The notes under the pieces are model-generated. The model ran no database searches, was not told the origin of the DNA, and saw nothing but the letters and a program-made list of their open reading frames with translations. Both the position numbers and the translations under genes were made by a program. This document shows positions 1,361 through 23,687 of a stretch of 27,583 bases of DNA, in pieces (the first letter of the stretch is position 1; each line of letters starts with the position of its first letter). The DNA comes from a virus: IMG/VR virus record IMGVR_UViG_3300010354_000493, positions 1 to 27,583 of that record; one strand, written 5' to 3'.

Positions 1361-1653
1361 ACTACCGCAACTCCAAGCTCACCGAGGCCGTGCGCCAGCT
1401 ACCCTGCCAGCAGTGTGGCATTCAGGATGGCACGGTGGTAGCCGCGCACTCAAACCAACTAAGGGACGGCAAGGGTAAGGGCATCAAGGCCCACGATTAC
1501 AGGATCGCGGCTCTATGCTATCGGTGCCATGCAGACCTGGATCAGGGCAGCAAGATGAGCAAGGAAGAGCGTAAGGAAGTATGGGAAGAGGCTCACCGGG
1601 GGACTATAGGTGAGCTCTTCTCTCGCGGTCTTATTGACGTTGTAAAGCCTTGA
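1357..1653 (+). CDS. DUF1364/YbcO-like zinc HNH nuclease
   Basis: The start is TTG 1357 (TTGA overlaps the previous stop), with AAGG just upstream; the product is 98 residues. Two zinc-knuckle pairs, C17-x2-C20 and C54-x2-C57, flank a conserved AAHSN segment with H31, and H58 follows directly in CYRCHADLD. This spacing is that of the DUF1364 (YbcO-like) group of small HNH-type endonucleases of lambdoid recombination regions. They are related in style to NinG/Rap, which cut branched or D-loop DNA. Metal binding and nuclease activity are inferred from the motif. The gene ends the + operon, and its last 23 bases are antisense to the end of the giant gene. Confidence 0.8.
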   Translation: MNYRNSKLTEAVRQLPCQQCGIQDGTVVAAHSNQLRDGKGKGIKAHDYRIAALCYRCHADLDQGSKMSKEERKEVWEEAHRGTIGELFSRGLIDVVKP

Positions 1654-4600
1654 TACGTTCATTGAAGTTATTCATCATCCGTTGCTTTTGTTCTTTGTAG
1701 CGCTCGATCTGGGCCTTGGTCTGCTCAGTCTCCGGGCGCTTTTGTATTTCCTTGATCGTCTTGTTGATCTTGGAAATCTGATTCTCCAGGTTGTTGGCGT
1801 TCTGGATGAATCGGTACTCGGGATTATCCTTCATGAACTCTGAGAGATTCTCACGCTTCTCCCGCATGCGCTTCATCTCACCCTCGAGCTCAGCCAGCAT
1901 CGTGACGTTCTTGTAGAACTTGTCCGACACAGCTGACGGGGTCTCCGTCTCACCATAAGCCTTGCCCAGGATCGGCACCTTGTACGGCGGCGTCTCTTCA
2001 CCCTCGACCTTGGCCTTGACGAAGCCGGCAGCTTTGGCAACCTCACGACCCAGGCCACCCACGTACTGGGAGAACACATAGTCAATGTCGTCAGCGGTCG
2101 GGCTGTATGCACCGATGCCGTACTTACCACCACCCGTCAGGTAGTTGATACCGTAGGCCAAACCCTGGCTGATGGCAGATGCATTGTCCCGGCTACGCTC
2201 CCATCCAGGCGATGGGTTGGTAGCACGGTTCTCTTTGGAGATCGGTCGGCCAAAAGCATCCTTGTTCTCAGCGATAGCAACAAACGGATCTACCAGGGTA
2301 GGCGACAGGGTCTGGATCAGGCCGCTGGAACCTAGCGGGTTGAAGGCATCCAGCACAGCAGAGGCAATGCTCAGGACCGTCTTGGGCAAATCCCGCTTAC
2401 CGGTCATAGCCCCGGCCTGGGTCAGCGCATACTCGGTCACCAGGCGTGCAACGTTGGGGAACACGTTTAGACCCAGTGGCATGGGAATGATTGCGTAGCC
2501 CTGGCCAAACGGATTGGGGATGATCAGGTTCTTGTTCTTCAGGAACTCAGGGGGCTCGTCTGCGTCAAAGCCTGCGAAGGCCAGCAACGCAGCTTGCATT
2601 GCCCCAATCATCATGCCGCCGGCGATAACTTTTTTACCACCAGGAGTCAGTCTAACTTTGCCGTTTTCATCACGCTTAAAGATTAACTCCGCCATACGGG
2701 CAGAACCCTGTACAGAGGCGTTCAGGAAAGCATAGAAGGCGTTGGCATTGGTGGTCCATGCACCCTTGCGGTTGAAGTTAACCGTTAGGTTCTTAGCCAG
2801 CTCAGCAGCCCGGTCCTCGGAGAGGCCAGACTCCAGGGCAGCTTTGAACGCTGACAGACGCACAGCGTTTTCCATGGCGTCGTTGTAGTCAGACAGCCAG
2901 TCAGCCACAGCCTGGGCAGCACGGCGCACATTGGAACGGTCCAGACGGGCCATCTCACGTTGGACCAGGGTTGCCTTGTCCTTGGCGCGGGTGAACTGCT
3001 CGCGGTAACCAGTCTGGCCACCAGCGTTAGCGAAGCGCTCGTACAGGTCGATCCACTCCTTAGCCTCGGCATCCTTCGGGGTCTTGCCGCGCAGGTCACG
3101 GTAGATAGCTTTGAGCGCAGGGATAGCCCCGGCCACAACTTCCATGCGCTTGTCTGCGATCGGAGTGCCAGTCAGGTTAACGGCTGCAGACTCCACGTCA
3201 CGCACAAAGTTCCAGGCACCGAACACAGGGTTGAACTGGGTGTTCATCGCTGCGATCAGGCGGGTCAGCTCAGCAACCGTGTCCAGCCCGTTCTCAAGCT
3301 GGTTGGCGTCCAGGTTCTTCAGAGCCTTGACCATACGTTTGGCACGCTCATCAGCCGGGTTAAAGATGATGAACCGGTCTTTGCCATTGATACGAACCGG
3401 GAACACGTTCTCTGCATTAAGAACGTTGGGATTGATTCGGTATTGAACCAGTCCTGTTTTCTTATCGATGCTAGGACTGCGTGGTTGCTGGAAGATGTTC
3501 TCTGCCGTGTCAGGATCCAAGCCCATAGCCTGGAGCTCGGCGATCAGCTTCTTCTTGTTCTTGACCGCATCAGGATTGATGGGCATCCAGAACTCAGGGT
3601 TGGGAGCCTGCAGAGCCATGCCGTACAGAGCACGACCCACGCGGGCTTTCTCAGACCTGACGATCGCCATCTCACGCTGGAGGGCAATGTTGTTTAGGAT
3701 ATCCACAACCGTCTTCAGCGAGCCGGTAGCCGTACGGGAGAAGTCACCCTTGATGGCAAAGCCCTTACCCATGCCAAAGCTCGGGTTCACAAAGTCCAGC
3801 TCGTTGGGATCGCGCTTGAGCGGGACGTAGTGCTTGAACATGTCACGCCAAGAATCGATACGCTCCTGGGTCTCAAGCCCGTTGGCCACCAGCATGTCCT
3901 GGGTTCCTTCGACAAACTTGTCGATGTCCTTGGCCAGCTCTTCGTACTTGGCTTTCTCTTCCTTGCTCAGGCCGTTGAGATAAGCAATTGCATCATCCGT
4001 GGGGATGCCAGAACCAGCGTCAGGCATGCCAGGGTTACGGGCCGCGATCAGGTCGTTGTATTCCTGGGCGTGGCGGTTCTGCAGGTAGAACTCAAACTCG
4101 TCAACCTTGACGCCCATCTTGTCCATCTTCTCGATGAACGGACGGAAGTCACGCTTGAGGAAATCCATGGTCTGCTTTGAAACACGACCGTGGTACAGCG
4201 TCTCTTTCAGGTAAGCATCAAAGCGGTCAGCAATCTCGCCAATGCCTTTGACCACAGCCTGCACAACACGCTTGGTATCAACGTGCTTGTCCTGCCAACG
4301 GTATGCCCAGTCGTCCATCTTGGACTTCTCAGGAGAATCCCACACAGACAGAGGAGCAGGCTTGCCCTTGTAGTTGCGGCGCGTGTTCTCATCCAGGTTG
4401 AGCATGCCCATCACGCTGGCTTCAACGTAGTCATTCAGGGCCGCTTTGGTAAAACGTTCACCCTTAGACGTCATGATGTCGTTGAAGATCCGATGCACAA
4501 CGTACTGGTTGTCGAACCCGAACATGTACTTCAGACCTTCAAACAGGCGCTTAGCGGCCAGGACGAATTTGTCCCAGCCAGTACCCAGCTTGCGTGCCAT

Positions 4601-7600
4601 CAGCTTCTCAGCATTGACAGCCCAGTACTCAGACGGGTTGATGTACTGGTAATAGTCGTAGCTAGGCATCACGCTCATGGCGAAGTTGTATAGCTCAATC
4701 GATGGTTTGTTATAGAACTCCAGGATGGCCGCAAAATAAAGTTGAGCCTTGGGAGACTTCTCTTTCTTAATGGCTTTGCCTAGCTTCTCAGACCAGTCCA
4801 TGATCAGGTCTGCCACAGCATCAGCAGTCATCATCTGCTCGAGGCCGTGGGTAATCTCGTGGCGGATGGTCACAGGATCTTGGACCCCGGTGGTTCCTTT
4901 ATACAGGCGAACCAAACGAGCCATGGCAAAGAACTGTCCAGCCGCATCACTGAATTCAGCGCCCTGTTTGACAGACAGGTTCAGCCCTTCCAGAACAAAG
5001 GGGAACTTCTCGTACATCGTCTTGATGGCGGCGTACACGTCATCGCTGATGTTGCCTTCGTTCCACTGCTTGGTGGCCTGGGCAAAGAAGTTCTTGGCGT
5101 CCGTGCGCTTGACCTTGCTTGCAGCGATCTCGTCCTTGAGCTGGCTAGCAACATCGTCAAGCGTATTGATTGCCTCTTGTTCATCCAGGCCGGCTTGGCC
5201 TTTCTTAAACTTACGCAGAATCATGCCGCGCTTCTGACGCATACTCTGGTACTTGCGGATCAACGTCTCACGGTCAGCAACAAAGTTGGCCGTTGTGTTG
5301 AGACTCTCACGCTCAACATCAGGCTGGACGTTAGCCAGAGGCATCTTGGGAGCAAACATCTCCCGAGCTTCGTCCTTGTGGTTGTAAGCGATCAGAGTCT
5401 CGCCCCGGTCAGCCAAAAGGTACTGGATAGCTTCGTTGGCTTTATCCTGGTCATAGACCGTCGTACGCATGATCTGGCCAGACTTGTACAAGTCACCAGT
5501 AATGTCGGTCAGGCCCTTGTCCAGATAGAAAGAACCGCCCTCACGCTTGGAGCTGGGTGTAACAAAGCGGTACTCAGTCCCGCCCATGTAGGCAATTCTC
5601 AGATTCCCATCCGGCGTGCTGACCTCAGCATTACGGCCAAATGTGTTGAAGAAGTCCATTACCGCGGCAAGGTTCTTCAGGCGCACATCTGCGTTCTTCT
5701 GAGCTTTCTCAAAGTCAAACGTGCGGGGCATCAAGATACCCTGAGCCGTGGTGCCATCATCCTTGGTATAGGTTTTGATATGGCCCATGTTGTTGACAGC
5801 AGCAAACCCAGCCAAGATGTTGCCGGTCACCATCCAACGATTTTCGCGGCGCACAGTTGCACCCTTGTCGAACAGATCCAGCATGGGGATGTATTCGAAC
5901 TTGTCGGTCTCTTGGTTGAACCAAGGCGTCTCGAGCTCTCGCTTCAGCTGGTACACGCTACCAATCTGAGAGAACGGCATCGAGGTGGACTTGGATTCCC
6001 CGTCAGCCAGGGCAATCGTCATCTGCCAATCAGAGCCGGCCGCAGGGTTCTTGGTCTTCTGCTTGTTCTGGATGTCGGTCACAACGCCCTTGACCAGCAT
6101 GCCCTTGGAGTTCTTGGCCACCACTGGAGTACCGATCGGAAACTCAGTCAGGACCGTCTTGATGTGGGTGTACTGGGCGTTGATCTGGCCCTTTATAGAT
6201 TCGATCTTGACCCGGTCTGGCTCAGCCTCGGCTTCCATCTTCTCGATAATAGACTTGCCATATGCTTTGGTGCGGTCGCTCAGGTCGTGCCACATACGAG
6301 AAGACTTCTCGCTGGGTTTCTCCCCGTTCAGGCTGTTTTGAACCTGGCGCTGAACCTCTTCCTTGGAGTAAGGCTTGACCGTGCGCTTGACGTCCACCTT
6401 CTCCATGATGGCAGGCTTGGCAAAGATAGACGGATCACCCTTGTCCTCGGTGATGGGCACAGAAGCAAGGGTCTTGGCGTCCAGGTCAGCAGCCTTGGAT
6501 TCCAGCTTGTTGCTGCCCATGCTATCTTCGCGCTCAATCAGATCGTTGTAGCGCTCAACCAGATCCTTGTATACCTCTTCCTGCTGCTTGATCGGCAGGA
6601 TTGGGATATACCCAGTCAGCTTGCGAATGTCTTCTTCGCCGGCCTCGGACGGATTGTCTGCAATCTCCAGGATCTTCTTGCCACCCAAAGCCTCGTAAAC
6701 CTCTGGGTTGTCACGCAGGTATTCCTGGGCAACCTGACCACCATACTCGTTCATGAAGTCAACGGTGCCCTCAGCTGTAACAGCGGACTTGCGTGAAGCC
6801 GTGGTGTTGGCGTTCAGGCTGGCCATTTTCTTGAGTAGGACGGCGGCAGGGCGCATCTCAGCAGGGATGTCAGCCATCATCTGAGAGTACGCAGGCGGGA
6901 TTACCTGGCCAGTACGCAGAGGACGGCCCAGCATCTGCATGTGAATGTCGATGTTACCCTCAGCCTGGACAATGATCATGTGACGCTTACGCTGATCCTT
7001 GAACTTGCTAGAGGCGTGCAACGACAGTCCGGTAGAACCAGCTTGGTTCAGGATAATTACGTCAACTGCGCCGCTGTTAAAAGCCTTGACGGCATTCACA
7101 CGTTGCTTGATGTTGGCAGAGCGGCTAGTCAGAATGGGACGGCCACTCTCGTAGTTCAGGGTCATAGTGCGACCCGTGATTTCTTCCGTCTTATAGCCTG
7201 CCTTACGCAGTTCTGCATGCATGTAGTCAATCGGAGACATTGGTGCAGAGCCAAAGCCAGCATTCTCAATAAACTTTTTGATATCGTTGTATTGCTGAGT
7301 CAGTGCAGGCCCTAGATCATTGTCGGTTAAACGATATTCTTCTTTTGCACCATTGGGTCGTTTGATTGTGACCTTGCGCTGTTTTTCCAAGTAACGAATG
7401 TACAAATCTTTGAATGAAAGATCCACAGGATCTCCAATATTCAAATTCATTTCTTTGGCATATCCTTGAAGGAAAGATCCCATGGTGTTAGACACGGTCA
7501 ATATAACCTTCTCGTTTGCTTTCAACCGCCCGATAGCGTGACGCACAGAGTCCTGAACCTTCAGAGATAACAGCATCTGGTCAATCAAGGAGTGCATGTT

Positions 7601-10600
7601 TGATCCAAAGTTTGCACTTTGAACCTGGGTCTTTTCCCCTTCCATGCCTAACTTGGCACCCTGCTTGTCATATTCTTTTTGCAAACTCTTTACAACCACT
7701 TCCTTGGCGCGTGAGAACGCCAGGATGTCGCGCATAGACGTGGCCATATTCTCGGCTGTCTCTTTGTTTACATTGGTCTGCTGCGTGTTGTAAGCAACGC
7801 CAGCAAATGTACGTTCGCGGCGGATATACTGGCCAACCTGAGTCAGCATACGGGCCACGGTCTGCTGCATCGGAATTCCACCAGCCTTGATGGCTTCTGC
7901 CAGATCAGAAATGTTATCCACAGCCAGGCTCATGTCCGTGCTGGAATACAAATCCATCACATCAGGGCGCTTGGCATACGTGGCTGATGAGAAGAAAGTG
8001 CCGTAAGCGTTTTGCACCAGGTTACGCACGAATGCTGCACGCCCGGTAGCCAAACTTTCTCCAGCTTTAGCCTTTTCTCTTTGTTCTTTAGTGCGAGCTT
8101 GGGTTTCTCCACTACCGCCAGCGTTGTGGCTCTCGTCAAAGATCAAGTAGTTTTGAGCGCCAAATTGCTTGATAAAACGCTGACGTTCAGTTTCTTTCCC
8201 CTTGACGGTCTGCAGCTGTTTGTACGTGGTGAAGATCACCTTGTAGTCGCCCAAACTTTCCTTCTGACTCATGGCCTTCATGAGCCCATCCATGGCAGAA
8301 ACATTAGATTTGGCAGACTTCAGCGTCAGGTTGTTCTCAGTAATTTCTTCACCCTTCTTGCGAATCAGGGTGTAAGGAATGGCTTCTCCGTTGTTGGTAA
8401 TAAAAATCTTGGGATTGGCAGTGTCAAGCCCCAGCTCTTTCGTCATACCAATATCGTCCAGGTCCCGGATCATGTCCGAGTACAGGTTGGGCGCTTCGGT
8501 TACAAAGATTGGAATCTTGTCATGGACCAGGGCATAACGGATCATGGCGGCAACAACACGACCCTTGCCAACGCCGGTCTGGTCGCCAATGATGAAGCCT
8601 TTGCCGGCCTCTGCGTTGTAGATGGCCAGGGCTATAGCATCAACCTGTTCCGCCGAGAACAGCTCACGCACCGTCTCAGGATCCATGTCCAAAGACTCTG
8701 CAACGTAGTTATCCAGATCTCCGATCGAGCTCTCAATCTTGGCTAGAGAGTTCTCGATTGAATCAGCCATAGCCTTAGGAACCAGGGTTCCAATAGAGCT
8801 GGCTTTAGAGTGGGGATAGTAAGCAACCTGGTTTTCTGTCTCGGTCTCCAGGCCACGGCGCTCTGCTAATCCAGACTGGACACGCTCACCTGAGACAACG
8901 CTAACTCCACCCAGCTTGGGAAGTCCACGTCCTTCAGCACCTGCTTCGCGTTCTCGTTTGGCCCGCTCACCTGCGCCGGCCACTGGTTCTCCCTCTGCTG
9001 CACGTTTAGGGACGTTAGCAGGTTTAGGTTGTTGCTCACCAGCGCCTCGCCCACTTGGTTCGCGTTGTCCACGCCCGGTAGGTCCAGCCTCCGACACGCC
9101 TCGTTCGCCGCCTCCAACGGGTTCTCTTCCTTCAGCACCAACCACATCACTCGGTTGCTCAACGCCTCGACCCACTCGTTCTGGCTCAGCTTCCCGCTCG
9201 GCACTAACACCGACGTCAGCTCCGGCGGGGCCACGATCTTCTCGGGATACCATGGGTTCATTTAGCTTCTCCTTCAGTTGTTCGTATGTGGTGATGAGCT
9301 CTGGCAGGTCAGCTGCAGGCAGATCGCGAGATGACTTGCCAACCCCATCAATCACGATCACATCAACGGGATAGGTGGTGCCCTGCTTGGCGTACATGTT
9401 GCCGCCGGCAGTAAAGTGATCCACAACGTTGTACAGGTTGTACAGCTCGTAATAGAAGTCACGCTTGGCACGGCCTCTGTAGCCCTCGCGGCGTCCCTCT
9501 TCGGTCGTTGCCTGGACACCGCCCACAATCAGTACAGCACGGCCGTTTTCCTTCATCCCAACCAAGGACTTCAGGACAATGTCGTGGTCGATGTTGCTGA
9601 TCTCACCAGCCTTGCCAAACGGCGGGTTGGCAATCACAACGTCAAAGGCATTGTTTTCAATGTCCATCTCCAGAGCATTCTCTTGAGAGATGTCCGCCCC
9701 AGACATGATGCTTTCCAGCATACGAACCCGGTCAACATCAAGCTCGTTTGCTCGCACCTTGTCCGGGTTAGCCGCGATCAACAGCATGCCGTTGCCTGCA
9801 GTAGGCTCGAGTACGCTGGTTTTGTTGGTGATGCCGGCCAGCTCAGACGCCACATAGGCCAGGGGGGCGGGCGTGGAGTAAGCCTGGTTGGCTACGCTGG
9901 TTGAGCTACGCACAGAAAGGTTTGGCTGGCGACTGTACAGGTCAACCAGATCGTCATAGATTTCCTGGGTAGATTTCTTATTAAACCTGCCCTCTTCGAT
10001 GATGTTGCGAGCGGCAATGATGACGCCTGCTTCAATCGCTTCGTCAGCGTCCTTTGCGGCTTTGGTCCCTGGCTCAATCTTCTGGCCAGTCATTTTGCTG
10101 ATCTGATCTCTGGCCTCAACGATTGTCTTGAAGCTAGCTCCTTCTGAGAGCTTGCCTCCAATCTTTCCCGCCATTTTTGCTTTGTTAGAAAACTGTGTAG
10201 CTTGTGCTACGCCGGCAGGCTCTTCAGCTTCTGCCAGACCTTCCATAGACTCAACAGCGATGACTTCTTTCTTGGAGCTAGCGCCTTGATCCTGGTACTT
10301 GCCGGCCATGCCAATGTAGGCACCCTGCAGGTGATCCAGAGTGATCTGGTCAGCAGCTTCGTCACCCAGCTTGGAACGGATCGTGTCCATCACAAACCGG
10401 GCAGCTTCCTTGAATTTGATCTTTCCAAGGCGGAAGGCTGCATCCATAAGCCGGGTCAGGATCGGCATGAGCTTTTGCTCGTCCTCAGGGACAATGTTCA
10501 TGCGACCAGACTTGGTCAGCAACATGGACAGATCGCCCAGGGCGTCTTCTAGATCTTGCTTAGCCTTGGCTTTCTCGTCGGCTTCGGCCGGCTTGGCAGG

Positions 10601-12817
10601 CGTTACAGGGGCGGCAGGAGTGACGGCAGGTGCCTTTGCGGCAGGCTGCAACACGTTTTCACGAATCATCGCCTCGGCTTCTTCGCCGGACGGTTGTCTT
10701 GCACTGAGCCCGGGTGGCTTAATTTTGGTAAGCAAATCACGGCCAGATGGCGTCAAGATTCCTCTGCCGTTAATCATGCCACTCGCTAACAACACATCCT
10801 TGACAGGGCCATCTTTCAACGACTCGGTTGAAGCATCTTCCAGACCCATGTAGACCTGGATTGGTGTCGGGGTTACTGCTGCAGGCGGGGTAGGTGCAAC
10901 CTTGGCTACTTCAATTCGGCGCTCTTCAAATGCACCATCGGCAGACTTAACGGTAATTTGATTTCCGGTATGGCTAACAGCGGTAACAATCCATGTGCGG
11001 CCATTAAGTTCAACTTTTTGCCCTGGTTTGTATTCACCAGCCGGGGCAATAATATTCTCACTTTTTATTTCTGGAAGTTCATTCCACCAGTCTTCAGCAG
11101 CCGCTGGCTTGCGCTGTTGTTCTAGAAGTGTTTTTGCGTATTCTTGTTGTTCTGGTGTTTTTAGGATTAAAGCGTTTGACGCGCCAGCAATTTTTTGCGG
11201 ATAACTAAGTTCATTTTTATTCAATCTTGCGCCAGGAATCTTAGCAATAGCGTTAATTGCATCTCTAACTGTAGATGCCCGCGTAATACCGATTTCTGAG
11301 TCTGCAAATGCGCCGCCTAGCAGCTGATCCAACGTGTTTGTTGGCGCAGCAGTAGGCGTTACTGCAGGCGCGGTAGGAGGAGTAGTTGGTTGCTCAGGGG
11401 CAGGCGTTACCGCAGGCTCAGCCGCTGCAACAGGGGGCTGTGGAGTTCGTGTAACTTGTTTCACTTCTGTCCCAAAAGTACTCACTTCTGGGGGTGTAAC
11501 AGGCCCTGGTGTTACCTTTGGTTCTACGGGTTTACCAGTAGAAACAGGCGGTTGTGCAGCAGGTCTTTCCTCTGTTTGAGCCAGGATCTCCCTCAGCATT
11601 TCGGAAGTATCTTGGGCCTCTGACGGGGCTGCTTGTGCCATGGGTTCGGCAGGCGGAGCAGGCGGGGCCGCAGAAGGCTCTGTGGGAGGCGCAACAGCCT
11701 CAGGAGGGGTAACGGTAGGTGCAGGCTGTTTAAGCGCCCCAGGAAGGCCAGGAGTACGCAGGGAGCGTGCTGCCAAGGGAACTTCAACAGCCGCCCCTCC
11801 AAGCTCGCCCAACATCTCCAGAGCAACATCTTCCAGATCCACCTTGCCATAGGCCGCGAGCTGGCCACCGGCTTCAGAGATGCCACCGCCGGCAATGTCG
11901 ATGCCAGCACCACCCAGGCCACGGCCAACCTTTTGGGCAAGCGTGCGGCTAGCCATGATCTCGTTAGCCCGGCTGGCCACTTGAGCCAGATCAGCGCCAG
12001 CACCAAGCTCAGTACGAGCTGCCTTGATAGCTGCGTTCTTAGCCCCGCCAGCAAACCTACCGCCGGCAAGCGTAGTAGCCGCGTCGATAGCGGCAGTTGT
12101 AGCGCCTTTGGTACGGGCGTCAGAGATGGCTTGTTGCACGAACGCCTTGTCCTGCATCAGGGCCTGGACGTTACGCTCGGTGGGTTCTAGCCCACGTTTT
12201 TGAAGCTCTTTACCAATCAAGCCAATGAACTCAGAGCCAATCTCAACAGGGGCTTGGCCAGTGAATGCGCCGCCGATAGCTCCAATACCAGCACCAATGG
12301 CCGCACCGCCGGGCCCACCCAGCGCGCCAACAGCAGCACCGCCCTTACCGCCAGCCAGCATGCCGACGATAGAGGGAACCATGTTTGCCGCCTGCTCAGC
12401 GGTCATGTACATCAAGCCCTTGGGATTGGTGATGGCCTGACGCCCCACCTCATAGAGCATCTCGCCAATAGCCTTGGAGCCCTGCATGAACCCTTGAGCT
12501 TCTTCCCAGGCTTTGCCCTCTTCTTTGAAGGCACCCTTGATGTCTTTCAGCTCTCTAGGCTCATTGGCTGTGGGCGTGGCCAACTGCTCGGCAATCACGC
12601 GAGACTTGGCCGCAACATCACCACCAGAGATGACGGCCGGGGCAACCTCAGCTGACGTTAGGGCTTGCTTGCCGCCCTTGACTAAGAGCTCTCCTACGTT
12701 GGATAAGAAGCCTGGCTCCTTGACTAAAGTACCACCGTACTGTTTGGCCAAAGCATCCAGATTCTCTGGCTTTGTTTCGACCCCACCGAACTGTTTTGCC
12801 AGAGCGTCGTAGTCCAT
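1631..12817 (-). CDS. Giant polyvalent virion protein: methylase, SBNO helicase, zincin-like, LPD38
   Basis: 3,728 residues from ATG 12817 (AGGA 8 bases upstream; TAATG overlap with the gene before). Layout by approximate residue: 1-30, two copies of DALAKQ(F/Y)GG; 151-187, a Gly/Ala zipper likely to meet membranes; 354-500 and 640-755, Pro/Ala linkers around a KOW/SH3-like module (590-640); 940-1160, an adenine-type methylase with motif I EPTAGNG (1004-1010) and motif IV NPPF (1064-1067); 1186-1316, a Gly/Glu/Arg linker; 1325-2030, a Strawberry-notch superfamily-2 helicase with GDQTGVGKG (K1418), DESH (1561-1564) and GRPLRTGQ (from 1964); 2653-2657, HEITH, a zincin signature; 3180-3600, an LPD38-like region with a hydrophobic patch near 3390-3416; 3640-3728, a coiled coil. 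Such fusions are known as proteins packaged in the capsid and ejected with the genome in Bcep22-like podophages. Virion location and DNA protection here are inferred. No lytic transglycosylase motif was seen. Confidence 0.93.
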   Translation of the reverse strand: MDYDALAKQFGGVETKPENLDALAKQYGGTLVKEPGFLSNVGELLVKGGKQALTSAEVAPAVISGGDVAAKSRVIAEQLATPTANEPRELKDIKGAFKEEGKAWEEAQGFMQGSKAIGEMLYEVGRQAITNPKGLMYMTAEQAANMVPSIVGMLAGGKGGAAVGALGGPGGAAIGAGIGAIGGAFTGQAPVEIGSEFIGLIGKELQKRGLEPTERNVQALMQDKAFVQQAISDARTKGATTAAIDAATTLAGGRFAGGAKNAAIKAARTELGAGADLAQVASRANEIMASRTLAQKVGRGLGGAGIDIAGGGISEAGGQLAAYGKVDLEDVALEMLGELGGAAVEVPLAARSLRTPGLPGALKQPAPTVTPPEAVAPPTEPSAAPPAPPAEPMAQAAPSEAQDTSEMLREILAQTEERPAAQPPVSTGKPVEPKVTPGPVTPPEVSTFGTEVKQVTRTPQPPVAAAEPAVTPAPEQPTTPPTAPAVTPTAAPTNTLDQLLGGAFADSEIGITRASTVRDAINAIAKIPGARLNKNELSYPQKIAGASNALILKTPEQQEYAKTLLEQQRKPAAAEDWWNELPEIKSENIIAPAGEYKPGQKVELNGRTWIVTAVSHTGNQITVKSADGAFEERRIEVAKVAPTPPAAVTPTPIQVYMGLEDASTESLKDGPVKDVLLASGMINGRGILTPSGRDLLTKIKPPGLSARQPSGEEAEAMIRENVLQPAAKAPAVTPAAPVTPAKPAEADEKAKAKQDLEDALGDLSMLLTKSGRMNIVPEDEQKLMPILTRLMDAAFRLGKIKFKEAARFVMDTIRSKLGDEAADQITLDHLQGAYIGMAGKYQDQGASSKKEVIAVESMEGLAEAEEPAGVAQATQFSNKAKMAGKIGGKLSEGASFKTIVEARDQISKMTGQKIEPGTKAAKDADEAIEAGVIIAARNIIEEGRFNKKSTQEIYDDLVDLYSRQPNLSVRSSTSVANQAYSTPAPLAYVASELAGITNKTSVLEPTAGNGMLLIAANPDKVRANELDVDRVRMLESIMSGADISQENALEMDIENNAFDVVIANPPFGKAGEISNIDHDIVLKSLVGMKENGRAVLIVGGVQATTEEGRREGYRGRAKRDFYYELYNLYNVVDHFTAGGNMYAKQGTTYPVDVIVIDGVGKSSRDLPAADLPELITTYEQLKEKLNEPMVSREDRGPAGADVGVSAEREAEPERVGRGVEQPSDVVGAEGREPVGGGERGVSEAGPTGRGQREPSGRGAGEQQPKPANVPKRAAEGEPVAGAGERAKREREAGAEGRGLPKLGGVSVVSGERVQSGLAERRGLETETENQVAYYPHSKASSIGTLVPKAMADSIENSLAKIESSIGDLDNYVAESLDMDPETVRELFSAEQVDAIALAIYNAEAGKGFIIGDQTGVGKGRVVAAMIRYALVHDKIPIFVTEAPNLYSDMIRDLDDIGMTKELGLDTANPKIFITNNGEAIPYTLIRKKGEEITENNLTLKSAKSNVSAMDGLMKAMSQKESLGDYKVIFTTYKQLQTVKGKETERQRFIKQFGAQNYLIFDESHNAGGSGETQARTKEQREKAKAGESLATGRAAFVRNLVQNAYGTFFSSATYAKRPDVMDLYSSTDMSLAVDNISDLAEAIKAGGIPMQQTVARMLTQVGQYIRRERTFAGVAYNTQQTNVNKETAENMATSMRDILAFSRAKEVVVKSLQKEYDKQGAKLGMEGEKTQVQSANFGSNMHSLIDQMLLSLKVQDSVRHAIGRLKANEKVILTVSNTMGSFLQGYAKEMNLNIGDPVDLSFKDLYIRYLEKQRKVTIKRPNGAKEEYRLTDNDLGPALTQQYNDIKKFIENAGFGSAPMSPIDYMHAELRKAGYKTEEITGRTMTLNYESGRPILTSRSANIKQRVNAVKAFNSGAVDVIILNQAGSTGLSLHASSKFKDQRKRHMIIVQAEGNIDIHMQMLGRPLRTGQVIPPAYSQMMADIPAEMRPAAVLLKKMASLNANTTASRKSAVTAEGTVDFMNEYGGQVAQEYLRDNPEVYEALGGKKILEIADNPSEAGEEDIRKLTGYIPILPIKQQEEVYKDLVERYNDLIEREDSMGSNKLESKAADLDAKTLASVPITEDKGDPSIFAKPAIMEKVDVKRTVKPYSKEEVQRQVQNSLNGEKPSEKSSRMWHDLSDRTKAYGKSIIEKMEAEAEPDRVKIESIKGQINAQYTHIKTVLTEFPIGTPVVAKNSKGMLVKGVVTDIQNKQKTKNPAAGSDWQMTIALADGESKSTSMPFSQIGSVYQLKRELETPWFNQETDKFEYIPMLDLFDKGATVRRENRWMVTGNILAGFAAVNNMGHIKTYTKDDGTTAQGILMPRTFDFEKAQKNADVRLKNLAAVMDFFNTFGRNAEVSTPDGNLRIAYMGGTEYRFVTPSSKREGGSFYLDKGLTDITGDLYKSGQIMRTTVYDQDKANEAIQYLLADRGETLIAYNHKDEAREMFAPKMPLANVQPDVERESLNTTANFVADRETLIRKYQSMRQKRGMILRKFKKGQAGLDEQEAINTLDDVASQLKDEIAASKVKRTDAKNFFAQATKQWNEGNISDDVYAAIKTMYEKFPFVLEGLNLSVKQGAEFSDAAGQFFAMARLVRLYKGTTGVQDPVTIRHEITHGLEQMMTADAVADLIMDWSEKLGKAIKKEKSPKAQLYFAAILEFYNKPSIELYNFAMSVMPSYDYYQYINPSEYWAVNAEKLMARKLGTGWDKFVLAAKRLFEGLKYMFGFDNQYVVHRIFNDIMTSKGERFTKAALNDYVEASVMGMLNLDENTRRNYKGKPAPLSVWDSPEKSKMDDWAYRWQDKHVDTKRVVQAVVKGIGEIADRFDAYLKETLYHGRVSKQTMDFLKRDFRPFIEKMDKMGVKVDEFEFYLQNRHAQEYNDLIAARNPGMPDAGSGIPTDDAIAYLNGLSKEEKAKYEELAKDIDKFVEGTQDMLVANGLETQERIDSWRDMFKHYVPLKRDPNELDFVNPSFGMGKGFAIKGDFSRTATGSLKTVVDILNNIALQREMAIVRSEKARVGRALYGMALQAPNPEFWMPINPDAVKNKKKLIAELQAMGLDPDTAENIFQQPRSPSIDKKTGLVQYRINPNVLNAENVFPVRINGKDRFIIFNPADERAKRMVKALKNLDANQLENGLDTVAELTRLIAAMNTQFNPVFGAWNFVRDVESAAVNLTGTPIADKRMEVVAGAIPALKAIYRDLRGKTPKDAEAKEWIDLYERFANAGGQTGYREQFTRAKDKATLVQREMARLDRSNVRRAAQAVADWLSDYNDAMENAVRLSAFKAALESGLSEDRAAELAKNLTVNFNRKGAWTTNANAFYAFLNASVQGSARMAELIFKRDENGKVRLTPGGKKVIAGGMMIGAMQAALLAFAGFDADEPPEFLKNKNLIIPNPFGQGYAIIPMPLGLNVFPNVARLVTEYALTQAGAMTGKRDLPKTVLSIASAVLDAFNPLGSSGLIQTLSPTLVDPFVAIAENKDAFGRPISKENRATNPSPGWERSRDNASAISQGLAYGINYLTGGGKYGIGAYSPTADDIDYVFSQYVGGLGREVAKAAGFVKAKVEGEETPPYKVPILGKAYGETETPSAVSDKFYKNVTMLAELEGEMKRMREKRENLSEFMKDNPEYRFIQNANNLENQISKINKTIKEIQKRPETEQTKAQIERYKEQKQRMMNNFNERIKALQRQ
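8866..9261 (-). CDS. Candidate overprinted ORF inside the giant gene (131 aa)
   Basis: A 131-codon frame, shifted relative to the giant gene, runs from ATG 9261 to TAG 8866. AAGGAG at 9269-9274 lies 7 bases before the ATG, an ideal ribosome-binding site. The product has ordinary composition with several Trp and hydrophobic helices (for example QNEWVEALSNRVMWLVL), whereas the giant protein is low-complexity Gly/Glu/Arg/Pro across the same bases. About nine in ten of its third positions are G or C by eye. The counter-argument is that the linker uses few codons with T in the second position, which alone makes this frame open. No homologous family is recognised; it is listed as a candidate only. 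Confidence 0.35.
   Translation of the reverse strand: MNPWYPEKIVAPPELTSVLVPSGKLSQNEWVEALSNRVMWLVLKEENPLEAANEACRRLDLPGVDNANQVGEALVSNNLNLLTSLNVQQRENQWPAQVSGPNENAKQVLKDVDFPSWVELALSQVSVSSLD
9269..9274 (-). promoter_or_regulatory. Strong Shine-Dalgarno inside the giant gene
   Basis: AAGGAG on the minus strand, 7 bases upstream of ATG 9261 of the overprinted 131-codon frame. In the giant gene's frame the same bases encode Lys-Glu, so the match could be chance. Confidence 0.4.
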
Positions 12818-14862
12818 TATTTGATTCCTGCTTGAGCCTTAAATTTATCAGCAGCGGCTTGATTTGGGAAGGAGTAAGTTTTACCCCCAGCAGTAACTGT
12901 AACTGGTTCATAACCACCAACTTCTGCCCCACCCATTTGCGCCATTATTTTGGTCAATTTAACTAAATCTTGAGCAGCTTGCTTCTGACCTTCAGGATCA
13001 AGAGGGCTCTTGCTAGGATCTGCCAAAATTGCTAATTTGTCAGCAGCAGACTTAATGGTTGCAAGGTTTTGCTTGTCTGATGACAAATAAGAAGTCGGGT
13101 TAGTAACGGCCAGAAGAGCCTCGTCATAGGTCATCTTCTCGTTGCCAGGCTTCTTGAGCATAGCTTGAATTGCCCTTTCAGTACGAGCGTTAGCGGCCTG
13201 TTGCGGGCCGGCATAAATGTTCGCAACTTTAACGGCATTAGCTTGTCTGTCAGCCTCAAGCACAGCCTCTTGGGCCAGCTTTTTGGCTTCAGAATCAGAT
13301 TTACCCAAAGCAAGTGCTGCTTCAAGATTGTCTTTGTACACTTTGTCAAACTCTGCTTTGCCAATCGTAAACAGGTCTTTTCTCCAGCCACGCTTGACGT
13401 CAGAGATCTTGGTTTGGGTCTCAAGCATGCTCTTGAGAGTCTCAAAGTCTTGAGCCTCCAGAGCTTTGGCACGGTTACGCTGAGCCTCTGCTCCATACGT
13501 ACCAGCAGCCGCAGACGTCAGGCCACGGGGAGCCAGGGCAATCTGACGCATGTATTCACTAAACCCTTGGTTTGCCTCTTGCTCCTTGGCAAGACGTTTA
13601 CGCTTTGCAGCCAACTCTTCAGCCAATGTTTGTAGGCTAGCCGTATCAGGAGCGCCAACAAACTTCTCAGCCTCTTCCCGAGCCAAACGTTCACGCTCAT
13701 ACGGATTCAGGTTCAGGCGGTCCAGTTGAACTTGTTTAACCTGAGATGCCTGCTCCGGAGTCAAAATGCCCATGGGCGAAGGCCGGGGCTGAGGAGGAGC
13801 TGCGGGAGCTTCTTGGCGAGGTGCTGCGGCACGAGGAGGGGCAGAAGAAGGCGCGCCAGGACCAACATCAGGCGAGGCAGAAGGCGGTGCTTTCGTGGTA
13901 GACGGAGGCACAATCTTTTCTTGCGACAGGAACTTATTCATCTCACGCTGAGTAAACAAAGCCCGGGCTTCAGGAGACATCTTGCGACCAGCCTGGCGTT
14001 CCAAATCATCAGCACGCTGGGCAATGATGGCCTCAATACCTTGAGGCTCAGGAGCTCTTGTTGGCTCAGACCGTGGAGCATCTTGAGGCGTTGCTTGCGG
14101 AGCCGGTTCTTTGCCCATGCCTAGATATTCACTACGGATATCTGAAACAGGAGTCAGGCTGGCCCTGGGAGATTCATCCATGGGATTGCGGACATAACGG
14201 CGCAGTATGTTGAGCGGCAATGTTGCAATGTCAGCTGCGGCAGCAGGTAGACCAGCAGCAAAAGCCAACGCTTTCTTAATTGCAGGCGCGTCAGAGACTT
14301 CTTCTTTTGGGGCCGTGCGATCTTTTATTCGCTCAAGAATATCTTTAGCTTCTTCCGGCGTTAGTTTTTCATCCGGGACATCACTACGCTCTTCACCATT
14401 AAAAGCAATGATTCCACCACCAGCATAGTTACCCACATTCGATGGCAATTGATCCAAGCCACCCTTACCCTGGGCTTGCAAAGCAGCCAGTTGTTGCAAC
14501 ATCTCAGGGCTAGCCTCAGGCTGGTCTGCCGGTGGAGCCGTCGGGATAGGCTGTGGTTGGGGCGGTTGCTGAGCTTGCTGCTGAGCCTGCATCATGCGCG
14601 CTTGCAAAGCCTGCTTAGCCCGCTCCTGCAGGGTCTGAGCCACTGTAGGCATGTTGGCACCACCAGCCTGTTGGAGCTGGTTCATGGCCGCTTGTCTCTG
14701 GGCTGCGTCATTCTCCTCAGTCAGGATCTGAAGAGCCATCAACTCTGTCAGGTCAGGAGGCAAGCCAGGCTTGGCCTGTTGCTCTTTTTGAACACGTTGC
14801 TGCAAGGCCGCAGGATTCCCTTGAAACAGGGAGGCAATGCCATTTGCGCTGGGTTGCATCAT
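12817..14862 (-). CDS. Gln/Pro-rich putative internal virion protein (681 aa)
   Basis: Starts at ATG 14862 with AAGGAT upstream, and ends one base into the giant gene's ATG. Residues 40-135 are a Gln/Ala-rich helical region followed by Pro-Gln runs. About 143-157 is a Gly motif, GNYAGGGIIAFNGEE. Residues 195-222 are Ala-rich and hydrophobic, a possible membrane-active helix. Residues 240-365 are Pro/Ala/Ser-rich and disordered, and 385-640 are charged and helical. The C-terminal 30 residues contain GKTYSFPNQAAADKFKAQAG, a short domain I have seen ending structural proteins of related phages. No enzyme motif is visible. Its place directly before the giant gene suggests an ejected core or scaffold partner, which is inferred. 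Confidence 0.8.
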   Translation of the reverse strand: MMQPSANGIASLFQGNPAALQQRVQKEQQAKPGLPPDLTELMALQILTEENDAAQRQAAMNQLQQAGGANMPTVAQTLQERAKQALQARMMQAQQQAQQPPQPQPIPTAPPADQPEASPEMLQQLAALQAQGKGGLDQLPSNVGNYAGGGIIAFNGEERSDVPDEKLTPEEAKDILERIKDRTAPKEEVSDAPAIKKALAFAAGLPAAAADIATLPLNILRRYVRNPMDESPRASLTPVSDIRSEYLGMGKEPAPQATPQDAPRSEPTRAPEPQGIEAIIAQRADDLERQAGRKMSPEARALFTQREMNKFLSQEKIVPPSTTKAPPSASPDVGPGAPSSAPPRAAAPRQEAPAAPPQPRPSPMGILTPEQASQVKQVQLDRLNLNPYERERLAREEAEKFVGAPDTASLQTLAEELAAKRKRLAKEQEANQGFSEYMRQIALAPRGLTSAAAGTYGAEAQRNRAKALEAQDFETLKSMLETQTKISDVKRGWRKDLFTIGKAEFDKVYKDNLEAALALGKSDSEAKKLAQEAVLEADRQANAVKVANIYAGPQQAANARTERAIQAMLKKPGNEKMTYDEALLAVTNPTSYLSSDKQNLATIKSAADKLAILADPSKSPLDPEGQKQAAQDLVKLTKIMAQMGGAEVGGYEPVTVTAGGKTYSFPNQAAADKFKAQAGIK

Positions 14863-14877
14863 GATTGATCCTTACTT

Positions 14878-16695
14878 TTAGGGCGTGCCCTTGATACCCA
14901 AATTATTCAACAAACTCTGCAAAGCCGTATAGCCCTGCGAGAAGTTTGTAAGGCCAGAACTCTGAGGCGTGATCGGGGCCTGCGTCTGTAACGGCAAGCC
15001 ACTGAGCAGCGACTGCTGGTACTGAACCATCTTGTACGGGTAGTCGCGGGCCTCTTCGAATTGAGCCTTGTCTGCGGCGATGCCTTCGGACTCGATGCCA
15101 CGCTGGGTCTGGCCAAGAGCAGCCTGCTGAGCCAGGTTCTGCAATCCGATCTGGCTTTCCTGAGCCCCCAGAGAACCTTGAGCCTGGGTGCCACTCAAAG
15201 CACCTTGCAAAGCCTGGAGCTTACGAGCCTGGTCAGCGTTGTACTGAGCCATGGCTTGTTGGTAGGCGGTGTTGTAACCCTGGCCCGTAATGTTGGCCAG
15301 GTTAGTAGCCAAGTTACGATCGGCTTCAGACTGCATAATTGCCTGACGACCACCGCCATATGCCCCAGCTTGAGTCAGCTTGGACATATTGGCCATGTTG
15401 GTGATCTGAGCTTGACGACGAGCCTCTGCGATCTGCGGATCAAGCGACGCCTGCAGATACGGGTTCATGTACTGTTTGGCCTGATCTGCACCAAAGGCAG
15501 CACCAGCCAAGCCCTGCATCTGACCAGTAATGTTGCCTGCGGTCTGAGCTGCTTGGGTCACAGCGCCAGGAACCTGAAGGCCACCAGCGGTCTGGAAAGC
15601 CTGTTGCTGCAAGCCAGAAGTGCCGGCAGTCAGTGGCCCCTGATAAGCCTGGTAAGGCATCTCAGACAGAGCCTGCCCCTTACCCAGCATTCCGGTCACA
15701 TAAGGACCAGCCCAAGTAGACAGGTTGGATTCGTAGGAAGTGCCAGCCGGCCTGGTAGAAGTATCAACCAAATTACCTCCGGAATAGCCTTTGATGCCCC
15801 CGCCAGCGGCATAGCCCACCGAGCCGCCAGGCATGTACTTGTCTGGGTTGATCTGCTTGCCTTGTTGCTTAGTCCCAGTACGAGCCATACGGATCTTGTC
15901 CATCATCTGATAGAGCTTCTTGGCACCAGCATCAGAATTACCGTTACCCAGGTGAGATACAACGTCAGCAGGCACAACAAACTCCCCATGACTTAAAGCG
16001 GCCGGTTGATCTCCATCGATTTCAGCCGGTAGTTCATCCGACATTCCATCAGTAGATCCTTGCAGGTAACGACCCTTGGCCAAAGCCATCAAGCCACCAT
16101 GAGCAGCCTTTACGGGTTGCGCGGCAATTTGCTTAGCCTGCTCCACAGCCTGCTGTTGAGCGGCTGCAGCGTTGCCAGGGGCGGTGTATTGCACATCAGT
16201 AAAGTACTGACGGCCCGCACTGCCAGGACGACGATTGGGATCGTTCTGGTACGGCACAGCAGCTCGAGTGGCCGTCAACTGAGGGATAGAACCTTGATAA
16301 CCAACCCGGTTGTACGTGGGCTGGGTGTTCAAATTCATCAAACCACCGACCAGACCAGCGGCCTGAGCAGGGTTTTGCGAGATATATTTTGAAACTGATG
16401 CAGCAGACAGATTGCCTTTGCTGATCTGAGAAACCAGATCGTTGAGCGTTGCCCTGTTGGGGTCATAGACAGGCTGCCCTTGGTAAAAGTACTTGCCTTC
16501 AGGAGAAATGGCTGTGCCGTCAGAATAGTACTTCCAGTTATACCCAATCTCGCCAGGCTTGGTCGTATTAGGGATCTCTGTTACATAATCGCTTGTTGAA
16601 GTATCAGGGGTGGTTGTGATCGGGGGATCTTCTTCATAAGACCATAACGGTTCCCCAGTCTCGGGATCAAACTCACCAGTCATTACGAGTGCCAT
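14878..16695 (-). CDS. Putative internal/ejection virion protein with GDQPAALS-GEFVVPADVV domain (605 aa)
   Basis: Starts at ATG 16695 with AAGGAGC at ideal spacing. Three parts are visible. Residues 1-190 are polar, Thr/Pro then Ala/Gln-rich. Residues 200-306 contain GGLMALAKGRYLQG, a conserved block (about 216-269) built on GDQPAALSHGEFVVPADVV and LGNGNSDAGAKKLYQMM, and AAGGGIKGYSGG near 296-307. Residues 380-600 are a long Gln/Ala/Gly-rich helical region with periodic ANITGQG- and LGQTQRG-like phrases. The central block recurs in structural proteins of aquatic podoviruses and other phages, where it is uncharacterised. The helical, Gln-rich C-terminal half resembles ejection-pore proteins in style. 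Its role in the virion core is inferred from content and neighbours. Confidence 0.8.
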   Translation of the reverse strand: MALVMTGEFDPETGEPLWSYEEDPPITTTPDTSTSDYVTEIPNTTKPGEIGYNWKYYSDGTAISPEGKYFYQGQPVYDPNRATLNDLVSQISKGNLSAASVSKYISQNPAQAAGLVGGLMNLNTQPTYNRVGYQGSIPQLTATRAAVPYQNDPNRRPGSAGRQYFTDVQYTAPGNAAAAQQQAVEQAKQIAAQPVKAAHGGLMALAKGRYLQGSTDGMSDELPAEIDGDQPAALSHGEFVVPADVVSHLGNGNSDAGAKKLYQMMDKIRMARTGTKQQGKQINPDKYMPGGSVGYAAGGGIKGYSGGNLVDTSTRPAGTSYESNLSTWAGPYVTGMLGKGQALSEMPYQAYQGPLTAGTSGLQQQAFQTAGGLQVPGAVTQAAQTAGNITGQMQGLAGAAFGADQAKQYMNPYLQASLDPQIAEARRQAQITNMANMSKLTQAGAYGGGRQAIMQSEADRNLATNLANITGQGYNTAYQQAMAQYNADQARKLQALQGALSGTQAQGSLGAQESQIGLQNLAQQAALGQTQRGIESEGIAADKAQFEEARDYPYKMVQYQQSLLSGLPLQTQAPITPQSSGLTNFSQGYTALQSLLNNLGIKGTP

Positions 16696-19437: not shown

Positions 19438-20829
19438 TTACTGCGTCAGATCGTAGAAAGAGATGGACCCCAATCCATCCCCCGTTGTTGCGCCAGACAC
19501 CGTGCGTACAGCAAGCGTGTAGATATCGCTCACTCCAGCCAAGGACACCCCCAGCTGCAAGTCCCAGTTGTACCCGGTCGGAGCACTTGTCTCGCTAACG
19601 CCAGCACTACCTGAGGAAGTGACATAGTCTGTTTGCACGATTGTCCCAACATTGCTGATGGCTGTCGCCGCAACGTCATACTCTACGTTGCTGTCAGATG
19701 GAACTGTAGCCGCCCAGGTTGCTCCCGTCAAAGTCGGGTTCTTCAGCAAAGCCACTTCGTAGTTCTGGCTGGTTGTGGGAAGAAACTGCACCCGGTTTGG
19801 TAGTACCACCGCGCCAGTCCGACCAGAAGCCAATCGAATAGACACAATCGGGTAGAACGTAGCCGCCGTGTTAATGGTCGTAAAGATTGTGGTGCGTCGC
19901 GCCACATGGTCAATTGACGTCTGCTCAAACCCGCCCTCAGATACAACAGAGCAACAGATCTGGGTCAACGTTGCGGCCACCGCCGAGGTCGTGGTTGTAA
20001 TCTCATACCTTACAGGCAGGATGGCCGTGGTCATGTAGACCGTGGTGCCATAGACGTTTGCAGTATTAAATGTGTGGCAAACAATGTACTCACCGTTAAT
20101 GATGAAACCACAACGGACCGAGCCTACACCCAACCATTCAAAGTCCATCCACAGAATCTGCGGTTTTGTTAGGTCTAAGGTATACCCACTGGTGCCCGTC
20201 CCATCTAAGGGGTCGCCGTTCCAATCAGCCTGGTTGACTGTCCGGGCATCGCTGGGAGTTCCTGAGGTGTTAGAACGCAAGACAAAACTGTTTACACCAT
20301 CTACCTTCTGGAAGAACACGCCGTTGTCAGTGTTGAAGTAGCCCACGCGTTGGGTCAGGTTGACGCTGTTACTCGCATCCATCACAAAGGTAGCAAGCAC
20401 CAAAAGCCCTTTGCCGGGCTGATATGGGAAGCTCCGGTAGGTTTGACGCACTACAGAACCCACGCCACCGGCCGTCACGCTCATGCTGACGCTGGCCTGG
20501 TTTGTATTGAACGTGGTGGACCCTGTGCCTGTCGTCGAAGAGTCAAACTGGTTATCAGCAGCGTAACGGTTCTGGCTATCAAACAGGGTATAGGGCTGGC
20601 TCACCCGCTGGCGACCAAACGCATCCAGGGCTGTGGGCGGGAATGAGATTGGTACTTCTGTATTGGAGGCCATAAGCTGTCCTACGATCTTATTGAGCTG
20701 GTTGAAGTAAAGACGCAGAACATTGTTGAACTGCTCTTGGTATTGGGAGCTGTATTGTCCCGGGGCAAGAGGCAAGTTCGGGGGAGTAACCCGTAGCAGT
20801 TCAGCATCTGATGTGACAATCAACGTCAT
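19438..20829 (-). CDS. Virion structural protein, beta-rich, tail-associated (463 aa)
   Basis: Starts at ATG 20829, overlapping the previous stop as ATGA, and ends at TAA 19438-19440. Residues 15-50 are an amphipathic helical N-terminus (LPLAPGQYSSQYQEQFNNVL), likely for attachment to the particle. Residues 68-95 carry DAFGRQRVSQPYTLFDSQNR, a motif shared by many phage structural proteins that binds or precedes the beta domain. Residues 110-310 are rich in beta strands with WMDFEWLG and GFIINGEYIVCHTF, resembling a jelly-roll or concanavalin-like sheet. The rest is Thr/Ser/Val-rich beta structure. A decoration, fibre-anchor or adhesin role is inferred; no enzyme residues are recognised. Confidence 0.75.
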   Translation of the reverse strand: MTLIVTSDAELLRVTPPNLPLAPGQYSSQYQEQFNNVLRLYFNQLNKIVGQLMASNTEVPISFPPTALDAFGRQRVSQPYTLFDSQNRYAADNQFDSSTTGTGSTTFNTNQASVSMSVTAGGVGSVVRQTYRSFPYQPGKGLLVLATFVMDASNSVNLTQRVGYFNTDNGVFFQKVDGVNSFVLRSNTSGTPSDARTVNQADWNGDPLDGTGTSGYTLDLTKPQILWMDFEWLGVGSVRCGFIINGEYIVCHTFNTANVYGTTVYMTTAILPVRYEITTTTSAVAATLTQICCSVVSEGGFEQTSIDHVARRTTIFTTINTAATFYPIVSIRLASGRTGAVVLPNRVQFLPTTSQNYEVALLKNPTLTGATWAATVPSDSNVEYDVAATAISNVGTIVQTDYVTSSGSAGVSETSAPTGYNWDLQLGVSLAGVSDIYTLAVRTVSGATTGDGLGSISFYDLTQ

Positions 20830-23238: not shown

Positions 23239-23244
23239 TGTCAA
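23239..23244 (-). promoter_or_regulatory. Possible promoter -35 element before the gp10-like gene
   Basis: The minus strand reads TTGACA, a perfect -35 hexamer, overlapping the lysozyme stop and about 44 bases before the gp10-like start. The only -10-like match is poor (TAGTGT at 13-base spacing), so this is weak. It sits in one of the few gaps of the late unit, between the lysis and tail genes. Confidence 0.2.
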
Positions 23245-23687
23245 CCCCCGAGTAACGCGCACTCTGCTGTACGCCGTTTAACAAGGCCGGGGAGAACGCG
23301 CCCGCCACCTCTGGTCCAGAGCATCAATTGTTCCTTGGCTCCGTCCCAGTCTTGGGCGTTGATTTTCCTCTTTAATGTGCTTGTCTGCAAGCGTCCAACG
23401 CCCAGGTTATAGCAAAAATCTACGATGGCATTACAGCGCTTTTCATCCGTCAGCAGGCCAGGGCAGTTACGCAAAACCCCGGGGAGGAAGGTGTGCTGCA
23501 GCTCATGCATGAGGAGGGCAGATGCCCGGGCGTCGTCTATATGGGGATCCTGGAGGGTGACTTTGCGGCCATCCTCGTAATAGGTGGATCCATAGCCAAT
23601 CGTGGGAATCCCAGCCGGGCATAGGTAGGGGGCGGACCGAAAGCCCTCAAATCGCTTACACAGCCCCGCCGCCAGTTCCAGATTCAT
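23241..23687 (-). CDS. Endolysin, GH24 (T4-type) lysozyme
   Basis: The 148-residue protein starts at ATG 23687, overlapping the holin stop as ATGA. It is a glycoside hydrolase family 24 muramidase that cuts the glycan strands of peptidoglycan. Visible catalytic residues are E14 (RFEGF), C23 and T29 (PTIGYGST), spaced E-8-C-5-T. This is the known variant in which Cys replaces the Asp of T4 lysozyme. Later RNCPGLLTDEKRCNAIVDFC and LWTRGGGRVLPGLVKRRTAE match the conserved C-terminal lobe with the GL..RR signature. Length is normal for the family. There is no signal or anchor sequence at the N-terminus, so export through the adjacent holin is expected. Confidence 0.95.
   Translation of the reverse strand: MNLELAAGLCKRFEGFRSAPYLCPAGIPTIGYGSTYYEDGRKVTLQDPHIDDARASALLMHELQHTFLPGVLRNCPGLLTDEKRCNAIVDFCYNLGVGRLQTSTLKRKINAQDWDGAKEQLMLWTRGGGRVLPGLVKRRTAECALLGG

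Follow-up and report, generated by a model that had tools for sequence, protein, structure and literature searches.

The DNA analysed here is a 27,583-base virus record; 'the window' denotes this whole stretch. Most of its first half is taken up by the gene for a single giant protein, which starts with ATG and runs from 12817 to 1631 on the minus strand, with a length well above chance expectation. A first-pass annotation had placed a 3,728-residue ORF at 1631–12817; its coordinates are right and the strand, missing there, is minus. The features of the giant and of the late genes around it, with the evidence for each, are as follows.

1631..12817, minus strand: giant polyvalent protein gene, 3,728 aa (ORF and translation; homologues at L002–L009 and 70+ other loci)
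12719..12817, minus strand: N-terminal tag, residues 1–33, tandem DALAKQFGGVETK / DALAKQYGGTLVK (duplication tests, relatives)
11828..12430, minus strand: Gly/Ala-rich hydrophobic region, ~residues 130–330 (sequence)
11138..11740, minus strand: Pro/Ala/Thr-rich linker, residues 360–560 (sequence)
9209..10132, minus strand: DNA adenine methylase module, residues 896–1203, with STPAP at 981, EPTAGNG at 1004 and NPPF at 1064 (phrog_3820, homologues)
6494..8797, minus strand: Strawberry-notch-type (SNO) SF2 helicase/translocase, residues 1341–2108 (Pfam and motifs)
5327..6487, minus strand: module adjoining the SNO helicase in closer relatives, residues 2111–2497 (segment profiles)
4328..5260, minus strand: zincin-like metallopeptidase candidate, residues 2520–2830 (invariant residues, Pavtok gp27 homology)
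4847–4861, minus strand: HEITH of the zincin candidate (motif)
1649..4294, minus strand: C-terminal chassis, residues 2842–3723, mostly helical, including LPD38 (profiles, model)
1967..2560, minus strand: LPD38, residues 3420–3617 (Pfam, 2e-34)
12817..14862, minus strand: upstream late protein, 681 aa, overlapping the start codon of the giant (ORF; C-terminus varies with the tag)
14878..16695, minus strand: late protein with a 'DNA ejection protein' match (phrog_4287, 4e-8)
16733–19027, minus strand: late protein of 764 aa in which a degenerate unit of ~15 aa, DxxxAKxIGAxxxxD, recurs about ten times (sequence)
19438..20829, minus strand: virion structural protein (phrog_1645)
20826..23195, minus strand: virion structural protein (phrog_3287)
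23241..23687, minus strand: phage lysozyme (endolysin) (PF00959, 6e-34)
25949..27583, minus strand: tail fibre with a Peptidase_S74 chaperone, running beyond the window (profile matches)

Profile searches gave no family match for the 764-aa repeat protein. A small ORF on the plus strand (1357–1653), with CxxC followed by CxxCH and resembling a small HNH-type nuclease, is convergent with the giant gene and overlaps its 3′ end. A wider view of the genome is provided by a relative (L005/G004) on a 61,418-base contig; the first 127 bases of this contig are repeated at its end, which suggests a complete, circular genome of ~61.3 kb. Its genes run from terminase, portal and major head protein through virion and tail proteins to the same late proteins, with the giant last, and its replication genes encode a helicase, a primase, an Erf-like protein and an exonuclease. 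The giant is the final gene of the late, structural run of a ~61.3-kb podovirus-like phage. Between 23241 and 24187, the lysozyme and its adjoining gene show 21–34% identity to their counterparts in this relative (L015–L018), whereas the flanking structural genes are 95–99% identical; judged by these identities, the lysis module is swapped between the two.

The giant is found, whole or in part, on six more contigs with identities of 84–100%. The copy at L002 is nearly without difference from that of the window, those at L003, L005, L007 and L008 are 84–92% identical over most of their length, and a single giant ORF is also open in many relatives at 40–60% identity. The N-terminal module with the Gly/Ala-rich region, which is possibly membrane-active, is common to the close relatives and to L069 and L094. 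P/A-rich and G/E-rich stretches separate the segments, in agreement with the low-complexity linkers described earlier.

The methylase module matches the PHROG DNA methyltransferase family phrog_3820 (7e-10), with sub-threshold matches only in Pfam (N6_Mtase, 0.004), and most of its motif residues, those of the TP motif (STPAP) and NPPF among them, are invariant in five homologues. Pfam assigns AAA_34 to residues 1385–1688 (1e-21; 77.5 bits, curated cut-off 27) and Helicase_C_4 to residues 1879–2101 (2e-21; 77.1 bits, cut-off 30.5), and the helicase motifs are intact: Walker A (K1418 in GVGKGR), Walker B (DESH at 1561) and motif VI (GRPLRTG at 1964). The first-pass claims of a methylase, made from EPTAGNG and NPPF, and of a complete Strawberry-notch helicase are thus both borne out by profile searches. 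The two enzymes stay paired in the relatives. A PDB sequence search with the methylase–helicase segment found no match.

In the zincin candidate (HEITH at 2653), the two histidines and the glutamate of HExxH are invariant in 23 sequences, as is a downstream PSE-WA-N block, in which E2730 (PSEYWAVNA) is the candidate third ligand. Erwinia phage Pavtok gp27 carries a clearly homologous module (hhalign, 99.9%), so the presence of a zincin does not set a DarB-like giant apart. The AlphaFold2 model of the segment is of low confidence (pLDDT 63), Foldseek returned no PDB match for it and a PDB sequence search with the segment was likewise negative. The metallopeptidase proposed in the first-pass annotation gains support and is kept as a candidate, assigned from the invariant motif pattern and from homology to another phage giant. 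A profile comparison with the HEAFH region of the Bcep22-type giants was not significant (0.9%), and equivalence with that region is not claimed.

The chassis was modelled confidently (pLDDT 81). Its fold matched no PDB structure at E ≤ 0.001, the structural matches being predicted viral homologues only, which bear different cargo; a PDB sequence search with the chassis gave no match. The Pfam match also confirms the LPD38-like region reported earlier. A profile search of IMG/VR with the C-terminal ~900 aa hit at least 573 places, of which 80 loci were read. A first scan of genome contigs for relatives found none, and the chassis search of bacterial and archaeal genomes gave 79 loci, many of them in Betaproteobacteria (e.g. 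Zoogloea, Nitrosospira, Cupriavidus, Delftia and Comamonas). Segment profiles reveal a fixed plan: the N-terminus and the cargo behind it vary, and the protein closes with the chassis and its LPD38; the chassis is always C-terminal, and LPD38 lies 20–187 residues from the C-terminal end in 89 of 89 giants. Among 15 sampled giants the cargo includes ADP-ribosyltransferases (8), ddrB-ParB (3) and acetyltransferases (2), and the full order of methylase, SNO helicase, zincin and LPD38 chassis is present in 12 further IMG/VR contigs (L041, L042, L043, L044, L056, L088, L103, L105, L003, L005, L007 and L008). Since L130 encodes a 1,492-aa chassis-type ORF after a separate 2,728-aa ORF, the chassis seems to be separable from its cargo and able to occur as a gene of its own. 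Chassis ORFs of ~1,290–1,770 aa without large cargo were observed at L045, L061, L075, L120, L121 and L130.

The giant begins with DALAKQFGGVETK at residues 4–16, followed by DALAKQYGGTLVK at residues 21–33, forming the tandem motif pair DALAKQFGG/DALAKQYGG. Tandem duplication was scored in the first 70 residues of dereplicated giants (shuffle p ≤ 0.02), with start codons assigned mechanically. Such a start is present in 35% of chassis-bearing giants compared with 3–4% of controls: 13/42 giants against 4/126 internal segments in the viral-contig and phage set (Fisher 3e-6), 14/35 against 4/105 controls in a second, independent set drawn from bacterial and archaeal genomes (Fisher 5.5e-7) and 12/313 for other late ORFs of the same loci (combined Fisher 9e-13), values that overstate the number of independent events, the sequences being related by descent despite dereplication. 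The 12 duplicated late ORFs include one, at L055, that forms the front portion of a giant split in two. A hairpin-like start forms a second class that is common in the viral set; the β-hairpin class was seen in 0/43 N-termini of the hold-out set, so that replication applies to the tandem-motif class only. A comparison of the end of the window's upstream gene with a hairpin tag was not significant.

The tag motifs vary by phage (NPFDQFD, FDPDAYL, DLFEEAGI, GYRFVGGDP and others). The tag of the window is common to L005 and L008, whereas L003 and L007 carry an unrelated tag of ~33 aa; beyond residue 33, the L007 protein is 94% identical to that of the window (over 33–468). The C-terminus of the upstream gene switches along with the tag, the junction being an overlapping start/stop versus a 7-base gap. 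Sharing of tag motifs by upstream-protein C-termini is striking in L060, L163 and L132, while overall it is weak and inflated by Pro/Ala-rich sequence. In these three loci the C-terminus of the upstream late protein resembles N-terminal tags that giants carry in other phages, for example GFRFKGGNPADQSNWEKV vs GFRFRGGDPSDEASWEPV.

In phage P1, DarB is located in the head and its N-terminal 30 residues are sufficient for loading; no consensus signal was found among the packaged Dar proteins (PMC9024508). The simplest reading, by comparison with this N-terminal signal, is that the tag is a candidate virion-loading signal that can be swapped. A broader proposal, which we hold tentatively, is that LPD38-chassis giants are loaded via short exchangeable N-terminal tags, many of them tandem, which are swapped as a cassette that includes the end of the upstream protein, making up a plug-in delivery system of tag, variable cargo and fixed chassis. 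A literature search on LPD38 and packaging tags found nothing specific. Should the tags prove to be loading signals, a sequence rule could be used to predict which proteins are injected by phages, and chosen cargo could be steered into phage heads.

Taken together, the giant is likely to be a DarB-like, LPD38-containing polyvalent protein that is made late and would be loaded into the head and then released with the DNA. A methylase, an SNO helicase, a zincin candidate and LPD38 lie in one polypeptide, which is encoded among late and virion genes, and the related JC1 gp69 was detected in purified virions with the second-highest score and 51 unique peptides (PMC9144972). Domains, context and these virion data support entry with the phage DNA, as the first-pass annotation had envisaged; for the window protein itself this is by inference. 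In the model of Iyer et al. (2017), methylase and translocase modify the injected DNA, which evades restriction, and zincins process the chain (PMC5512222). Applied here, the N-terminal tag would direct the giant into the head, the methylase and SNO translocase would scan the incoming DNA and methylate adenines, sparing it from restriction enzymes, the zincin may cleave the chain and free its parts before or after entry, and the chassis would be the structural or ejection part. P1 DarB matches the methylase segment only, and an antirestriction role for the window giant is therefore transferred by analogy.

An unlikely alternative is that the giant is mainly a structural ejection protein, in which the chassis and the Gly-rich region help to build the inner core or a conduit for DNA delivery, with the enzymes as passengers in minor roles. 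The chassis is the sole constant part, with cargo that varies or, as at L130, is encoded separately, and an upstream neighbour matches an ejection-protein profile. Against this, the catalytic motifs of the methylase and peptidase are kept across large divergence and the helicase is intact, which indicates selection on the enzymes. We consider it improbable that the giant is instead a late intracellular enzyme that stays unpackaged and methylates replicated phage DNA before packaging: the methylase and helicase could equally act on progeny DNA, but the relatives JC1 gp69 and P1 DarB are virion proteins, and the LPD38 architecture and the position at the end of the late operon suit packaged proteins. 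Fusion or misassembly of separate ORFs, which the very long chain and the occurrence of its parts as two ORFs in L055, L184 and L130 might suggest, can be dismissed given the one open frame conserved across the independent relatives described above.

The preferred reading, a packaged polyvalent protein, places the giant among the phage-type polyvalent proteins of Iyer et al. (2017), which it resembles in its multiple unrelated enzymes, late context, methylase–helicase dyad, zincin candidate and LPD38; it differs in using the rarer Strawberry-notch helicase, reported in such proteins 'in a few instances' (PMC5512222). With the Bcep22-type giants (BcepIL02 gp70, DC1 gp67 and JC1 gp69) and Pavtok gp27, annotated as 'DarB-like antirestriction' with the note 'methylase, helicase, lytic transglycosylase', it shares a methylase, a helicase, a late position and genomes of 60–63 kb. 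BcepIL02 and DC1 also have the LPD38 chassis of the window (26–27% identity over ~825 aa). The domains, the gene context and the virion proteomics published for JC1 gp69 (PMC9144972) support the parallel with Bcep22-like polyvalent proteins that the first-pass annotation had drawn. Unlike the window giant, these proteins carry a lytic transglycosylase at the N-terminus and use a helicase of the SNF2/HepA type: a profile search of BcepIL02 gave weak SNF2/Helicase_C matches, no AAA_34 or Helicase_C_4 and SLT at 77–168, and a HepA helicase is reported in the JC1 paper (PMC9144972) and the CSP3 paper. BcepIL02 further has LPD3; the window giant lacks it and differs from these proteins in beginning with a duplicated short tag. 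P1 DarB (2,255 aa) likewise combines an adenine methylase with an SF2 helicase in one fusion; its methylase segment is homologous to that of the window (1e-16), the SNO, zincin and chassis profiles of the window find nothing in it, and the relationship falls short of orthology.

Bacteroides phage BS-TP4 gp3 (5,391 aa) has the same order of methylase, SNO helicase and LPD38 chassis; it differs in being longer, in carrying an InPase domain and in starting with a hairpin-like segment. For the chassis, the nearest annotated phage record located, ahead of every bacterial phage record in the collection, is a 3,002-aa protein of Methanosarcina virus MetMV (MK170447.1, 33685–42693), which has no methylase–SNO cargo; the chassis crosses the bacteria–archaea divide, since MetMV shares it at 38% identity. 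No transglycosylase was detected in the window giant at Pfam sensitivity, as the first-pass annotation had observed, or in 15 sampled relatives, and its absence is usual in this clade. The suggestion that this absence, combined with a zincin, defines a distinct variant is not supported: among polyvalent domains, zincins occur most often (PMC5512222), the zincin has a homologue in Pavtok gp27 and the domain order recurs in the 12 contigs listed above. What is novel in the window protein may instead lie in its N-terminal tag. The giant is an additional member of the known polyvalent class, related to the DarB-like giants; it adds one more documented case to that class and shows that the Strawberry-notch form, described as rare in 2017, is found repeatedly in phages from the environment.
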